From Brevibacillus sp. JNUCC-41 (GTDB lineage Bacteria > Bacillota > Bacilli > Bacillales > DSM-1321), in contig NZ_CP062163.1 of assembly GCF_014844095.1 (NCBI RefSeq), positions 1,116,001 through 1,180,000 of the forward strand: a stretch of DNA of 64,000 nucleotides. Direction: 5' to 3'. The translations under genes were made by a program, and so were the position numbers. How positions within the stretch are numbered: position 1 is the first letter of the stretch; the number at the start of each line of letters is the position of its first letter. Positions 1,760-7,261 of this stretch are shown here, one piece after another. Below the pieces are notes generated by a model. The model was not told where the DNA came from. It ran no database searches and saw nothing but the letters and a program-made list of their open reading frames with translations.

Positions 1760-2092
1760 CTCATTCTCCCTACTAAAGAATTATATTTTTAACATTTATT
1801 TAAATATCGGTTAAAATAAGTATAATAATATAGGCATAAATGCTCATTCGTCTAAAATATATCATATTCCGTTAGATCTATAGGGAGATAAAGGAGATTG
1901 TAATACAATAGTAAACTATTAGACATTTAAGTAATAAAATAGAAACATTTGCAACGAGGGGCACCTGGCAAGCAAATGAACAATATAAAGTATATTGATA
2001 TAATTACTGACCACTCAAATTAATGCTTTTGAGACGAGCATCTTTCTGCCTTTACTGAATATATATAAAGGGTGGGCACACGTTCCTTATAT

Positions 2093-2122
2093 TTGACGGA
2101 TCGAGGCAATAACCTATATAAT
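2093..2122 (+). promoter_or_regulatory. SigA-type promoter of the riboswitch transcript
   Basis: TTGACG at 2093-2098 and TATAAT at 2117-2122, separated by 18 bp. Predicted start near 2129, about 25 nt before the riboswitch aptamer. Confidence 0.7.
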
Positions 2123-2149
2123 TACTGTATATAACTTATAAGAATCCTT

Positions 2150-2314
2150 CTGTTAAGGGGAGTAGCTATACAATAAAGTCGTCAGTACAGGATCGAATCC
2201 TCGGCTTTATTGGCAACTGATTTTAGTTGTTTGCAAGACCTTGCCGATTATTTGGTGAGTTCTTTTGATTTTTAAAAGACGGTATGACCAATAATCGGTC
2301 ATACCGTCTTTTTT
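2150..2314 (+). promoter_or_regulatory. yybP-ykoY family Mn2+ riboswitch with expression platform
   Basis: The hallmark segments of the yybP-ykoY family occur in order: AAGGGGAGTAGC (2155-2166), GTCGTCA within a hairpin closed by CAATAAAG/CTTTATTG (2170-2211), TGGCAAC, and GCAAGACCTTGCC (2233-2245). Members of this family bind Mn2+ and usually switch on Mn exporters or TerC-like proteins. The expression platform is the long intrinsic terminator at 2274-2314. The 3' side of the aptamer, CCGATTATTTGG (2244-2255), can pair with the loop and upper stem of that terminator, giving a plausible antiterminator. The gene under control is the kinase-like gene at 2348. Confidence 0.88.
2274..2314 (+). 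terminator. Riboswitch-controlled intrinsic terminator
   Basis: AAGACGGTATGACC pairs perfectly with GGTCATACCGTCTT across an AATAAT loop, followed by a T run. It lies between promoter and start codon, so it acts as an attenuator rather than an end-of-gene signal. Confidence 0.85.
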
Positions 2315-2347
2315 GATTCGAAAAATTGCACAATAGAGGTGAAAAGT

Positions 2348-2953
2348 ATGCAGAACTATAATGAGTTAGCTCAAAGCGTTAAGATTTCCGATGATAAAAA
2401 GCATATATTGCTTGATGCCGACCCATCTTTATCACTTATCGGAAAAGGCCGAAGCGCATATGTATTCAAAATACATTCCACCAATAAGGCACTAAAAGTG
2501 TTTTTCCCGGATCATACTCACACAGCTACAGTTGAAGCTGAAATATACAAAACCGTCCAATCCATCGAATACTATCCAACCCTATATGATGCGGGGGTAA
2601 ATTACCTGGTTATAGATCACATTGAAGGCAACACTCTTTTTGAATGCTTAACATTGGGAATCCCGATAACGGAAGAAAACATCGCGGAGATAGACCATGC
2701 CCTGCAATTGGCCAGGAAAGAAGGATTGAACCCTTCGGATATCCATTTACGAAACATCTTCATCACCTCCGAAAAAAAGGTGAAGATCATTGACGTTGCA
2801 AGGTTTAAGCAAGTGAAATCCTGCAATCAGTGGCACGACTTGAAAAGTGCATTTCACCTTTTCTATTCGAAGTCATTTTTTCCGAAGAAGATCCCCAGCT
2901 TCATACTGAATTCCATTGCAGCGATTTATAAAAAAAGATTCCTGCCCATCTGA
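2348..2953 (+). CDS. Protein kinase-fold protein (small RIO/Bud32-like Ser/Thr kinase)
   Basis: About 201 residues with the minimal kinase landmarks: glycine-rich loop IGKGRSAYVFKI, the lysine in KALKVFF, a catalytic-loop-like DIHLRNIFI and a metal-binding aspartate in KIIDVARF in place of DFG. It is too short for a full C-lobe and resembles the compact kinase-like proteins of Bacillus such as YrzF/YbdM. A GTG at 2339 is in frame, but it overlaps the Shine-Dalgarno GAGGTG (2336-2341), so the ATG at 2348 is the better start. It is the first gene after the Mn2+ riboswitch; Mn2+ could be its cofactor or signal, which is inference. A lipoprotein gene follows 34 bp downstream. Confidence 0.75.
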   Translation: MQNYNELAQSVKISDDKKHILLDADPSLSLIGKGRSAYVFKIHSTNKALKVFFPDHTHTATVEAEIYKTVQSIEYYPTLYDAGVNYLVIDHIEGNTLFECLTLGIPITEENIAEIDHALQLARKEGLNPSDIHLRNIFITSEKKVKIIDVARFKQVKSCNQWHDLKSAFHLFYSKSFFPKKIPSFILNSIAAIYKKRFLPI

Positions 2954-2987
2954 TCCTTACCATAAAAAAATCACATTGGAGGCATAT

Positions 2988-3431
2988 ATGAAAAAAATAA
3001 TGACCATTGCTCTACTGTCCATACTTACATTAAGCGGATGCTCAGCTTTAGAAGAAGTCAATTCATCATTGGAGTATGCAGATCATGCGACGGAGTATGT
3101 AAATACCGTTAAGGAATTTGCCAATGAGGTGCCTGCTTTGTCACAGGACGCCGTAACGAATGGAGAAGCAAGAGCAAATCTTGAAAAAGAACTGGAATTG
3201 ATGAAAACGGAGATTGAAGAATTCAATGCAATGGAACCACCCCAAATCGCTGAAGGCATCCATGAGAAGATCGTCAGCTCGAATCAACAGCTTTCAGATG
3301 GAATTGAATTATATCTGAATAATATTGAAAATGGCCAAATTGATCCTAAGGCATTGGAAGATTCAGAGATAATGAATTCAATCGATAATATAACAGTATT
3401 GGCAAAACAAATTGAAGAATTGGGTAATTAA
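2988..3431 (+). CDS. DUF6376-like lipoprotein
   Basis: 147 residues. The N-terminus MKKIMTIALLSILTLSGC is a lipoprotein signal with lipobox LSGC, so the mature protein should be tethered to the outer face of the membrane by Cys18. The rest is helical and acidic, with coiled-coil-like stretches (LEKELELMKTEIEEF). It resembles the small DUF6376 lipoproteins of Bacillus; function unknown. The ATG at 2988 follows GGAGG (2978-2982); the open frame extends upstream into the kinase gene, but those starts lack a ribosome site. It may be co-transcribed with the kinase-like gene and so fall under the same riboswitch. Confidence 0.7.
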   Translation: MKKIMTIALLSILTLSGCSALEEVNSSLEYADHATEYVNTVKEFANEVPALSQDAVTNGEARANLEKELELMKTEIEEFNAMEPPQIAEGIHEKIVSSNQQLSDGIELYLNNIENGQIDPKALEDSEIMNSIDNITVLAKQIEELGN

Positions 3432-3473
3432 GCATCCTGCAATGAATAAAAAGGAATCACTTGAAACAAATTA

Positions 3474-3528
3474 TTGACATGAAACCAAAAGGTTTTATAT
3501 AATCAACAAAGCGAAACCAATTGGTTTC
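3474..3528 (+). promoter_or_regulatory. SigA promoter with two ArsR-type operator palindromes
   Basis: TTGACA (3474-3479), an 18-bp spacer and TATAAT (3498-3503). The spacer holds the imperfect palindrome GAAACCAAAAGGTTTT (3481-3496). A second, perfect 16-bp palindrome GAAACCAATTGGTTTC lies at 3513-3528 just after the -10. Two copies of the same half-site GAAACC over the promoter suggest autorepression by the ArsR protein encoded second in the operon. Confidence 0.75.
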
Positions 3529-3557
3529 ATATATTTCAGTTAAAAAGGAGAATCAGT

Positions 3558-3986
3558 ATGGAAAATCAACATACACTACAGGACATCAAGAAGACAGTTA
3601 TTCTTGAAGCCCCTATCCAACAAGTTTGGGATACAGTTTCGACTGCAGAGGGCATAGCTTCATGGTTCATGCCAAATGATTTTCAACCGAAAGTGGGACA
3701 TGAGTTCCATGTGCAATCACCTTTTGGTCCATCTCCTTGTAAGGTAACGGAGTTAGATGCTCCTCATCGTCTTTCATTCAGTTGGGATACGGACGGTTGG
3801 TTCATTTCCTTCATTTTAAAAGAACTGGACGGCAAAACGGAGTTCACCCTTATTCATGGTGGTTGGAAAGAGCCTGAAACGATTCTTCCGAAACCGAATG
3901 AAAAAAGCTCAGTGATTCGCGAGAGAATGGATCATGGCTGGGAACAGATTGTTCATGCAAAACTTAAAAAGGTTGTTGAGGGCTAA
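3558..3986 (+). CDS. SRPBCC/AHSA1-family protein
   Basis: 142 residues of the START/SRPBCC fold, AHSA1 branch: N-terminal strand [29 protein letters not shown], central RLSFSWD and C-terminal helix containing [10 protein letters not shown]. Such proteins hold hydrophobic ligands in a deep cavity; the bacterial AHSA1 group is commonly paired with an ArsR repressor, as here. The ligand cannot be read from sequence. ATG at 3558 follows AAGGAG. The stop codon abuts the GTG start of the next gene, so the two are translationally coupled. Confidence 0.85.
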
Positions 3987-4358
3987 GTGTCTGCAGCAGA
4001 AAAACATGATGTATTTCAGGCTATCGCCGACCCAACCCGCCGAAAGGTCCTGCAATTGCTTGCTGAAGGGGATTTACCCATTTCAGAAATCACTTCTCAC
4101 TTTTCCATGAGCCGTACAGCGATTGCCAAGCATCTTCATATCCTTTCTGAAGCTGAATTGGTCAGTGGCCGGAAGGTAGGCAGAGAGAAACGCTTTCGGC
4201 TTCAGCCAGAACCTTTAGCGGAATTGAAACAGTGGCTTTCTTTTTACGATCAATTCTGGGATAACAAATTATCCATCCTTAAACATGTGATTGAACATTC
4301 AGGGGAAAATGGATTGAAAGTCATCGATAAAGAAAAGGACACGGATGAACCATCATAA
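3987..4358 (+). CDS. ArsR-family transcriptional repressor
   Basis: 123 residues with an ArsR/SmtB winged helix: IADPTRRKVLQLLAEGDLPISEI, recognition helix MSRTAIAKHLHILSEAELV and wing GRKVGREKRFRL. No ELCVCDL-type metal-site cysteines are present, so it probably senses a non-metal signal or acts through its partner. It starts with GTG directly after the stop of the SRPBCC gene and is therefore co-translated. The duplicated GAAACC palindromes at the operon promoter are its likely binding sites. Confidence 0.88.
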   Translation: MSAAEKHDVFQAIADPTRRKVLQLLAEGDLPISEITSHFSMSRTAIAKHLHILSEAELVSGRKVGREKRFRLQPEPLAELKQWLSFYDQFWDNKLSILKHVIEHSGENGLKVIDKEKDTDEPS

Positions 4359-4363
4359 TGAAG

Positions 4364-4397
4364 AAAAACCCCCGGCGCATTGCACCGGGGGTTTTTT
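4364..4397. terminator. Bidirectional terminator
   Basis: AACCCCCGG and CCGGGGGTT flank a short loop, with A and T runs on either side. It serves both the arsR-type operon (+) and the yhgE gene (-), which converge here. Confidence 0.88.
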
Positions 4398-4405
4398 CCA
4401 ATAGT

Positions 4406-7261
4406 TTATGCTTCCATCTCCACATTGTGTTCTTTGCGCTTCTTGATGACCATCGTTAGCAATAGTAGTAGATTGAAGACAATGATGCATCCAGTAAGGA
4501 ACACTATACTCGTTGTCAATGCATCCGCTCCAAGGCTCGTGCTCATCGCCTGACGGAAGCCCATGACAGAGTATGTCATTGGTATGAACGGGTGAACATG
4601 ACTGAAGAAGTTATTGGTCAGTTCCACAGGGAACATTCCTCCGCTTGCACCTAGCTGTAATACAAGGAATATCATCGCCAATAAACGACCCGGATTTCCA
4701 AATCCTACGGTCAAGAAGGTGACGATGAACATGAAGGTAAGGGAAGTCAATATGGAAACCCCAATGAATTGCCCCATGTTCTCGACCTGTAAATCCATTC
4801 CCCAAATCATGATCGCATCCAACACTAATGCTGAAAGCGTCGCTTGGATAAACAGGACCGTAAATTTACTGAACCACCATGCCACTCCTGAAGTAGGCCT
4901 TGTGGAAGGCAAGCCTGTCGGGAATCCCATATTGAACGCAATCGCTCCTACAAATAAGCCAAGAGACAATACATAAGGAGCCAGTGCATGACCATAATTC
5001 GGCACGTCACTGCTTTTTTGTTCTTTAACCTGTGTCGGTTCGGCAATCATGCTGTAATTATCATCGGTTGTTTTGTTTTCACTTATTTCTTCTGCTCCAT
5101 CACCGAGTTTATCCGAAAGTTCGACCGTTCCATCTTTAAGTGAGGATATGCCATCACCCAATTTTCCGGATCCTTCAGCAAGTGCCGAGGAACCTTCATT
5201 GATCTTACCTGCCCCATCGGCAAGCTGGATGACTCCATTGCTTAAAGTAGGCAGATTGCTTGCCAATTGTTCAGTGCCCTTAACAAGTGCTGATGAGCCC
5301 TCATTCAAGGCAGGTGAGTTGGCATTCAGTTCATTGGCCCCGCTAGCAAGCTGGCTTGCCCCTTCGCCAACTTGGCTAACACCGAACGCATACTTCTCAA
5401 GACCATCCCCAAAGGAGGTTGACCCCGCTTGAAGTTGTGAAACTCCATCTACCAACTGACCAGAACCCTCAGTTAGTTTTGATAGACCATTATTCAACGA
5501 GGAACCGCCTTGTGCTAACTGGTTGATCCCCTTCACTAATTCCGGTGTCCGTTCATTTAAACTTTGTGTTGCCGCCGTTAATTGATTGCTGCCTTCAACA
5601 GCCTCATTCAAGCCGCCATTTAATTGTGTTGCACCAGGAATCAATTGTTCTTCCAGTGCGTTCCTTATTGCCGTATATCCGTTTAACGCTGAAACGGCGT
5701 TTGGATTGACTTTATTCACCGCATTATTTAAATTGGCCACTTGTTCTGGAAGCTGGCCTAATCCATTCAATACAGGCATTACATTTTCCTTCAATTGCGT
5801 TGATAAGTCGGATACACTTGCAGCAAGAGTCGAGGCGATTTGTTTTTGTGCCTCCGCTTGGTTTTGAAGTTCATTTTGAATGGCTCCGATTAATTCGGAT
5901 TGTTGTTCACTGGTCATGCCTTTGAACGCTTCCGTGTTTTGAACGGCATTGATCGTGCTCTGACCATTATTCGCAATGGTTGATTGAAGTTCCGTTAAGG
6001 CCGCCTGACTGTTATTGAGGTCTTCAGTAATGCCAGATACGGTACCGGACGCGCTGCTTCCTGCAGGAATCGCTTCTTGCAATTGATTTACACCGCTTTG
6101 AATGCTTGTCAGTCCTTGCTTAAGCTGACCCATCTGTTCTTCTGCGGGCAATTGGCCATCCATTTTTTTCAGGCCGTCATTTAACGCTTGGCTTCCTTCT
6201 GCCAGTTTATTGATTCCTTCATTTAAACTTTGCTGACCTGATGCCAATTTTGGAATTCCTGTCGATTGGTCCGTCAGCTGGCTTGCATTTTGTGATAATT
6301 GATTCAACCCATCATTCAAATTCGCACTGCCTGTTTGCGCTTGTGCCAATCCCGTATTTAAAGTTTGCGCTCCTGGAACCACTTTGGCGAGCCCAGTGGA
6401 AAGTTGGGATGAACCTTGTAAAAGTGCTTCACTATTATTAGTTAATTCCCCTGTGCCTGATGCAAGTTCGTCCGCACCCTTTTGCAACTGACCGACACCG
6501 GAAGTATATTGTGAAATTCCCTTATTTAATTCCGACGCGCCACTTTCAAGCTTGTTGGCTCCTTCCATAAACTCGCCGACACCGATTTGAAGTTTATTCG
6601 CCCCATCTTTAAAAGTTAATGTGCTTGAAGCTAATTTATTCAGATTTTCCGTCACTTCTTTGTTTCCATCATCCAGTTTTTTTGCGCCATCATCCAGTTT
6701 CGATGCCCCATCTGCTGCATCATTGAAACCCTCTCCGATTTTATCAAACTGGGAGAAAATCGCTTCCGCATATTCTTTTGTGACACTTTCGGCAATTTCC
6801 GTTTTCAAATTATTCGCTGCCTGTTTTCCGACCGTTTCAGAAACGAAACTGCGTCCAGGATTCACGTCATACGTCAAATTCATTTTTTTTGGCTTATCAT
6901 CCATGACGGTTGCAGCATTTTTCGAAAAGTCCTCCGGAATGGTAACGACCATATAATATGTACCATCATCAAATCCTTTTTTCGCCGCTTTTTCCGATAC
7001 GAAATGCCATTCCAAATCATCATTGTCCTTTAAATTCTCGATTAGCTCATTACCGACTGTTAAGGTTTTACCCTCATATTCCGCCTTCATATCCTTATTC
7101 ACGACTGCAACAGGCAATTTGCCTGTATTTCCGTATGGATTCCAAGCGGAACTAAGGAATAACCCCCCATAAATAATCGGGACGAACAGTAAAACGATCG
7201 CGACACCGACCAGTTTTCGATTTGTAAGGAAAAGCTTCCATTCTTGTTTAAGCATGTTCAC
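4406..7261 (-). CDS. yhgE: YhgE/Pip-family membrane protein
   Basis: 951 residues. One N-terminal transmembrane helix (about 17-36, VGVAIVLLFVPIIYGGLFL), an extracellular YhgE/Pip domain, then about 550 residues of degenerate short repeats with the pattern L-x2-G-(A/S)-x-(Q/K)-L, typical of a long helical stalk, and a C-terminal block of about six helices from residue 780 onward. This is the arrangement of YhgE and phage infection protein (Pip), related to ABC-2-type permeases and to ESX-associated EsaA-like proteins. The true role in Bacillus is uncertain. Either GTG 7261 or ATG 7255 may start it; the GTG overlaps the upstream Rrf2 gene by 4 bp (GTGA), implying coupling. Confidence 0.85.
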   Translation of the reverse strand: MNMLKQEWKLFLTNRKLVGVAIVLLFVPIIYGGLFLSSAWNPYGNTGKLPVAVVNKDMKAEYEGKTLTVGNELIENLKDNDDLEWHFVSEKAAKKGFDDGTYYMVVTIPEDFSKNAATVMDDKPKKMNLTYDVNPGRSFVSETVGKQAANNLKTEIAESVTKEYAEAIFSQFDKIGEGFNDAADGASKLDDGAKKLDDGNKEVTENLNKLASSTLTFKDGANKLQIGVGEFMEGANKLESGASELNKGISQYTSGVGQLQKGADELASGTGELTNNSEALLQGSSQLSTGLAKVVPGAQTLNTGLAQAQTGSANLNDGLNQLSQNASQLTDQSTGIPKLASGQQSLNEGINKLAEGSQALNDGLKKMDGQLPAEEQMGQLKQGLTSIQSGVNQLQEAIPAGSSASGTVSGITEDLNNSQAALTELQSTIANNGQSTINAVQNTEAFKGMTSEQQSELIGAIQNELQNQAEAQKQIASTLAASVSDLSTQLKENVMPVLNGLGQLPEQVANLNNAVNKVNPNAVSALNGYTAIRNALEEQLIPGATQLNGGLNEAVEGSNQLTAATQSLNERTPELVKGINQLAQGGSSLNNGLSKLTEGSGQLVDGVSQLQAGSTSFGDGLEKYAFGVSQVGEGASQLASGANELNANSPALNEGSSALVKGTEQLASNLPTLSNGVIQLADGAGKINEGSSALAEGSGKLGDGISSLKDGTVELSDKLGDGAEEISENKTTDDNYSMIAEPTQVKEQKSSDVPNYGHALAPYVLSLGLFVGAIAFNMGFPTGLPSTRPTSGVAWWFSKFTVLFIQATLSALVLDAIMIWGMDLQVENMGQFIGVSILTSLTFMFIVTFLTVGFGNPGRLLAMIFLVLQLGASGGMFPVELTNNFFSHVHPFIPMTYSVMGFRQAMSTSLGADALTTSIVFLTGCIIVFNLLLLLTMVIKKRKEHNVEMEA

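Follow-up and report, generated by a model that had tools for sequence, protein, structure and literature searches.

A short yybP-ykoY aptamer stands upstream of a small gene of predicted kinase fold in Brevibacillus sp. JNUCC-41, and this aptamer-kinase link is conserved, being present in Peribacillus and many related bacteria. We consider it probable that the aptamer belongs to a Mn2+-activated transcriptional riboswitch which controls a two-gene operon by way of antitermination between two terminators, T1 and T2, and that the kinase has a part in the Mn2+ response. The window is the whole stretch of DNA that was analysed, 64,000 nucleotides in length. The features discussed below are listed in Table 1.

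Table 1. Positions, in window coordinates, of the switch and of the operon behind it.
Feature	Position	Strand	Basis or remark
SigA-type promoter TTGACG-18-TATAAT	2093-2122	+	11/12 consensus bases matched
yybP-ykoY (RF00080) Mn2+ aptamer, short form without P2 hairpin	2152-2247	+	covariance models, covariation
P1.1 switch helix, 5' strand AAGG	2155-2158	+	pairs with CCUU 2239-2242; invariant in 12/12 rows
Conserved GCAAGACCUU	2233-2242	+	3' side of aptamer and P1.1; common to T1 5' strand
Terminator T1	2235-2264	+	mutually exclusive with P1.1; -10.9 kcal/mol
T1 apex CCGATTATTTGGT	2244-2256	+	putative antiterminator strand; complement of T2 2287-2298
Terminator T2	2274-2312	+	16-bp stem, -24.7 kcal/mol, U-tract
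Ribosome binding site GAGGTG	2336-2341	+	from sequence
Minimal kinase gene, 201 aa	2348-2953	+	Pfam/NCBIfam searches, alignment, structure model, Foldseek
DUF6376 lipoprotein gene	2988-3431	+	Pfam PF19903, E 7e-41

The covariance model R2 was built from 16 TerC-linked aptamers only, which makes it an independent test of the window copy. Its sole match in the 64-kb window is 2152-2247, at 56.6 bits (E 2.5e-14). Genome-wide it picks out four sites, one of them the window copy. Model R1, which had the window copy among its training rows, yields these four sites too. The proposed structure pairs 97.1% of cells in a 12-sequence alignment (A2). Both sides change at 7 pairs (in P3, P3b and P4) in this alignment, and 0 of 500 shuffles came as high. 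Covariation also supports the pairing in an alignment of TerC-linked aptamers. The two P1 helices never vary in the 12 rows, so they are neither supported nor contradicted. Judged by these models and by covariation, 2152-2247 is a yybP-ykoY (Mn2+) aptamer, as the first-pass annotation had claimed, and its ligand is presumably Mn2+.

The RF00080 search proposed in the same annotation bore this out in part. It returns a match at 2146-2232 of 27.4 bits (E 1.3e-5, in a low-threshold search of 651 bases), but this is short of the curated gathering score of 45 bits. A default Rfam scan of the whole 64-kb window lists no family. At a first look, an RF00080 search of the whole genome missed the window copy; R1 and R2 do recover it. 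The three other aptamer copies in the genome score 38.7, 37.6 and 31.5 bits with RF00080. TerC genes follow the first two, and Spo0M-like and MscS-type channel genes follow the last. Since the two TerC-linked copies of the same genome also score below 45, we treat the gathering score as a strict cut-off here and not as the defining feature of the family. The condition under which the annotation would have been refuted, the lack of a significant RF00080 match, holds only if significance is equated with that score. The low-threshold Rfam search also brought up the Enterococcus sRNA EF3314_EF3315 and mir-244. Both were rejected, being far below their cut-offs and aligned largely on the terminator hairpins. 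The Spo0M-linked copy (L003, G000:C1:4549784-4549879, minus strand) is itself a short aptamer followed by tandem terminators.

The SigA promoter that had been read upstream of the aptamer stands. Its two hexamers can also be made out by eye ahead of L007-L018. A scan of region 1900-4420 gives 11 promoter-like sites, where shuffled sequence would lead one to expect 7.4. An intrinsic terminator is likewise present, although there are two of them and not the one that had been described. The kinase coding sequence starts with the ATG at 2348 behind a good ribosome binding site. Its stop is separated by 34 bp from the lipoprotein gene, and we presume that the two genes share an operon. Next after the lipoprotein gene is an AHSA1-domain gene paired with an ArsR-type regulator (3558-4358, by Pfam). 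This pair has its own promoter at 3474-3503, with 12/12 consensus bases in the promoter scan, and is taken as a unit separate from the kinase operon. Directly 3' of that promoter and ahead of the pair there is an inverted repeat, GAAACCAATTGGTTTC (3513-3528), perhaps an autorepressor operator.

The first-pass annotation saw in the next gene a compact RIO/Bud32-like kinase instead of a TerC protein, an exporter or an ATPase. This is upheld: the gene encodes a small protein of predicted kinase fold and none of the usual targets. The RIO/Bud32 label survives for the fold and not for the family. The only Pfam match is Pkinase, at E 2.6e-6, just under the cut-off, and no RIO model appears in Pfam at E<=1. 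The Bud32 model of NCBIfam gives E 0.01 and 15.6 bits against a cut-off of 372, so the sequence does not assign the protein to that family. The structure model (pLDDT 95.2, pTM 0.88) has RIO2 as its four best Foldseek matches in the PDB (1zao, E 1.7e-7, TM 0.58). The archaeal RNA kinase Ark1 aligns with it at TMt 0.65-0.66 and 21-22% identity, and other near folds are the kinase domains of class III lanthipeptide synthetases and PknB. As many as 1603 PDB chains match at E<=0.001, so the fold alone cannot pick the substrate. Sequence searches of PHROGs and the PDB gave weak, generic kinase matches only, and a viral fold search gave generic kinases, some of them from Bacillus phages.

The residues G32, G34, K50, E63, D131, N136 and D149 are invariant across 63 aligned kinase sequences (L018 was left out of the protein alignments), which makes kinase activity likely. 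We take them to be the glycine-rich loop, the catalytic Lys, the alphaC Glu, the catalytic Asp and the metal-binding Asn and Asp. A B. subtilis relative goes by the name YrzF. The lipoprotein scores 139.6 bits with PF19903 (DUF6376), above the gathering score of 27.3.

Comparison of the downstream gene in related genomes, which had also been proposed, favours the link. The genome is of Peribacillus type: among 17 homologue loci, 12 are from Peribacillus or Bacillus with 79-99% identity to the window kinase. The aptamer is upstream of the kinase in 15 of the 17, and is absent in Rossellomorea (L022) and B. pakistanensis (L023). The genome's own family (43 genomes) has 36 kinase matches with E below 1e-78. 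An R1 aptamer is upstream in 32 of these, on the same strand and 95-354 nt away; the four loci without one are in G029, G018, G032:C21 and G021:C74. The G029 locus has a decayed-looking aptamer (L115:1699-1782, 30.4 bits) in which the GUCGUCA block is absent, with an intact kinase gene downstream. It was not counted as switch-bearing. G014 has an intact aptamer upstream of a kinase gene broken by stops (L018 and L121). These stops may be sequencing error (G014 is listed as 87% complete).

At the order level the kinase is found at E<=1e-30 in 242 of 397 genomes. An R1 aptamer is upstream on the same strand in 44 of 80 loci (11 families, 18 genera, 64-107 bits), a biased rate, as the 80 were hand-picked among the non-family matches listed, with near-duplicates and weaker matches excluded. 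The 44 include three loci, L127-L129, whose genomes seem to be the ones behind R1 training rows L019-L021. Two loci with the aptamer on the other strand (L167, L184) were counted as lacking it. Since the aptamer is missing from 36 of these 80 loci and from 4 of the 36 in the family, the kinase can exist without it. Aptamer presence needs 13 changes on a kinase tree of 89 rows. This implies that the trait was gained and lost repeatedly. The median is 4 aptamers per family genome (43 genomes), so by a rough estimate a gene would have one by chance in the 1.2 kb upstream of it, on one strand, with a probability of about 5e-4.

The company that the kinase keeps is also recurrent. There are loci where the kinase directly follows the aptamer. 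The order aptamer, kinase, DUF6376 lipoprotein is seen in the window, L126 and L131, and the order aptamer, lipoprotein, kinase in nine loci (L134, L136, L138, L140, L144, L166, L169, L170, L177). This agrees with the earlier suggestion that the lipoprotein is a partner of the kinase. In nine loci of one genus (L145, L151-L153, L159, L162-L164, L172) a Spo0M-like gene lies between aptamer and kinase. The lipoproteins of the window, L131, L134 and L144 and the Spo0M-like proteins of L003 and L152 were checked by Pfam; the others are named by resemblance. A small FbpB-like ORF sits between the aptamer and the Spo0M-like gene in 12 of 23 loci searched (L214, L216, L220, L227, L232, L235, L145, L151, L152, L159, L162, L164). 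Its family (Fur-regulated basic protein, PF13040) was checked by Pfam on two loci. It is possible that FbpB-like ORFs under a Mn2+ aptamer are a cross-link between Fe and Mn. Three genomes of a sister genus have the aptamer, then TerC, then a distant relative of the kinase about 150-420 bp further on; those of L107 and L109 are 33% and 30% identical to the window kinase. Going by this operon company alone, the kinase and the lipoprotein may act in signalling for envelope or Mn2+/Fe2+ homeostasis.

Some observations concern aptamers in other settings. Some of the FbpB-like/Spo0M-like loci continue with a DUF1232-like gene. Mn2+ aptamers precede DUF2653-like genes in L215, L217, L218, L225 and L237 (Pfam on one), and a small secreted-looking protein comes first in four of these five. 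Since the script found no terminator in the five loci, they are perhaps under translational control. Further Mn2+ aptamers of the family have other or unassigned first genes (L219, L222, L224, L226, L228, L231, L233). The Mn2+ regulon is therefore wider than this account of it.

The proposed switch depends on a short shared strand. P1.1 (the helix name is taken from PMC11087558, in the part consulted) and T1 both use the same CCUU, so T1 and the docked aptamer are mutually exclusive. T1 is weaker in the window than in L007-L018, where it has -17.6 kcal/mol. A simple terminator scan lists the T1 core at 2240-2259. It does not list T2, whose U-tract is partly within the stem. Both terminators are present in the window and in all of L007-L018 (13/13). 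Among the 44 kinase-linked order-level loci the script finds T1 and T2 in 31. Six more show a second hairpin while T1 fails the script test (L134, L136, L140, L141, L166, L169), and six have a single terminator (L130, L175, L180, L194, L199, L200). The remaining one, L188, is outside the terminator counts; L188 and L126 were missed by the script's pattern.

The apex and 3' strand of T1 are complementary to the 5' strand and apex of T2. Over 56 unique pairs from 62 loci the mean T1-T2 duplex energy is -18.0, versus -14.8 with swapped partners and -7.6 with a shuffled T2. The permutation p is 5e-5 in a test that ignores the relatedness of the loci, and in only 4 of the 56 pairs does a T1 find its best partner in the T2 of its own locus. 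The complementary sequences differ between lineages. Compared with 154 unrelated terminators, the complementarity has p<0.05 in 25 of 29 representatives (p 0.0065 for the window) and is unexceptional in L137, L168, L170 and L211. These 29 were hand-picked from the 62 (L119, in which the script merged T1 and T2, was left out of the coupling test), and the null set, which came from the fetched loci, may still include undetected riboswitch terminators.

When P1 is enforced in folds of the growing transcript, the antiterminator is the predicted structure for ends 2298, 2300 and 2304, and T2 appears from 2308 on. Unconstrained folding gives T1 at ends 2270 and 2290 and again from 2304, and the antiterminator is present at 2298 and 2300 in this case too. 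For the full-length transcript T2 is the minimum-energy fold with or without P1 enforced, so any antitermination must be kinetic. The coupling of T1 and T2 is thus a proposal that has support, not a demonstration.

We propose the following scenario. Without Mn2+, AAGACCUU would fold into T1. T1 would also sequester CCGAUUAUUUGGU, which leaves T2 to form unhindered, and the OFF state would be tight with two serial terminators. Once Mn2+ is present, the aptamer would dock, P1.1 (AAGG/CCUU) would capture the 5' strand of T1 and T1 would fail. During transcription of T2, the freed apex strand of T1 would then pair with the ACCAAUAAUCGG segment of T2. With T2 blocked, polymerase would go on to transcribe the kinase and the lipoprotein gene. 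The kinase would phosphorylate a substrate within the Mn2+-sufficiency or Mn2+-excess response, and the operon layouts would tie this response to TerC, Spo0M-like and FbpB-like proteins.

One can imagine another scenario for T2, with the Mn2+ ON-switch and its target unchanged. T2 could be a back-up terminator only, with T1 as the sole decision point, and the two could be complementary because T2 arose as a duplicated or inverted T1. Several T2s do resemble T1 copies (e.g. L003, L149, L160), and if T2 is a copy, the T1 3' strand is automatically complementary to the T2 5' strand. The full-length fold, in which T2 prevails despite an enforced P1, would also fit a back-up role, as would the single-terminator loci. 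However, an always-on terminator of about -25 kcal/mol before a regulated gene is implausible, so T2 would have to be relieved somehow. The T2 stems in the window and in the f41, f6, f43 and f47 g120 loci are unlike T1, and it is mainly the apices that are complementary. We therefore consider a pure back-up role unlikely, and keep coupled antitermination as the preferred reading.

What the aptamer senses may also be doubted. The short sub-class could have drifted, so that the kinase operon answers another ion or Mn2+ in a different range. It has no P2 hairpin, reaches only 27.4 bits with RF00080 and differs from the TerC class in targets and expression platform. But the GGGGAGUAGC, GUCGUCA-UAC, CGG-UU and GC-AGACCUU blocks are identical in the kinase-linked copy and the three other copies of the genome, and the same short form is found in the Spo0M-linked copy of that genome and in one TerC-linked copy (L211). 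This makes drifted specificity quite improbable in our view. We give still less credence to an incidental linkage, where a mobile or duplicated leader landed before a kinase that gains nothing from Mn2+ control. The patchy distribution with its 13 tree changes and the decayed-looking L115 copy speak for such a history. A linkage that spans 18 genera with the platform kept and with recurrent co-operon partners under the same aptamer speaks against it.

Both the aptamer and the kinase fold are of known kinds. In the literature covered, in the parts consulted, the targets of Mn2+ riboswitches are transporters and metal-handling membrane proteins. No link of a yybP-ykoY switch to a kinase gene was seen in the sections consulted of PMC4342826, PMC10448178, PMC9943018 and PMC10246235, and the word 'kinase' occurs 0 times in the main text, as consulted, of the RegPrecise-based survey PMC3766115. 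A limited literature search (including portions of PMC11087558 and PMC12121620) turned up neither coupled terminators nor any of the kinase, DUF6376 and FbpB links, and this does not establish priority. Our data suggest that Mn2+ also switches on a signalling branch. We can offer only tentatively the wider idea that in these relatives of Bacillus the Mn2+ regulon has a second, signalling branch made up of the kinase, DUF6376, Spo0M-like and FbpB-like proteins, with short aptamers and coupled terminators, in which the substrate of the kinase is maybe not a protein. A non-protein substrate is considered because the RNA kinase Ark1 is among the nearest folds. If this is true, one Mn2+ decision would release two serial terminators, and the OFF state would be far tighter than in the TerC class. 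A double terminator coupled in this manner would amount to an expression-platform layout where the antiterminator of the second terminator comes from releasing the first. A kinase kept under a Mn2+ switch in the genome's own family and in 18 genera outside it would connect Mn2+ in the cell with signalling by phosphorylation, and Mn2+ control would make the function of the kinase directly testable.

The TerC-linked switches are the natural comparison. TerC-first loci have one terminator in 16 of 17 cases and two in L211. TerC was identified by Pfam for L001, L002 and L107 and by resemblance for the other TerC-first loci. Loci L238, L239 and L246, with the order aptamer, DUF1232-like, TerC, are outside these 17, and the script finds no T1 in them. 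The 16 single-terminator TerC aptamers have the P2 hairpin and are 105-116 nt long (alignment A6), versus 91-99 nt for the 44 kinase-linked aptamers (as R1 matches).

In the L. lactis ON-switch, according to the part of PMC11087558 consulted, Mn2+ stabilises P1.1 and the terminator is prevented. The preprint PMC10246235, in the sections consulted, places B. subtilis meeY (ykoY) under a Mn-responsive riboswitch and reports that the TerC proteins of this species load exported enzymes with Mn2+. As far as these sources go, the window switch is like those of L. lactis and meeY in its conserved blocks and in a P1.1 3' strand that is common to an intrinsic terminator. It is unlike them in that its target is a kinase-lipoprotein operon, in having no P2 and in having two terminators that look coupled where the others have one. 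The window kinase is like the minimal kinases RIO2, Bud32 and Ark1 in its compact fold, and unlike RIO2 and Bud32 it is not placed in the RIO or Bud32 family by its sequence. The closest comparison is with L001 and L002, which belong to the same genome and the same aptamer class. These differ from the window locus in that their aptamer is long and has P2, only one terminator follows it, and they encode integral membrane proteins of the TerC family.
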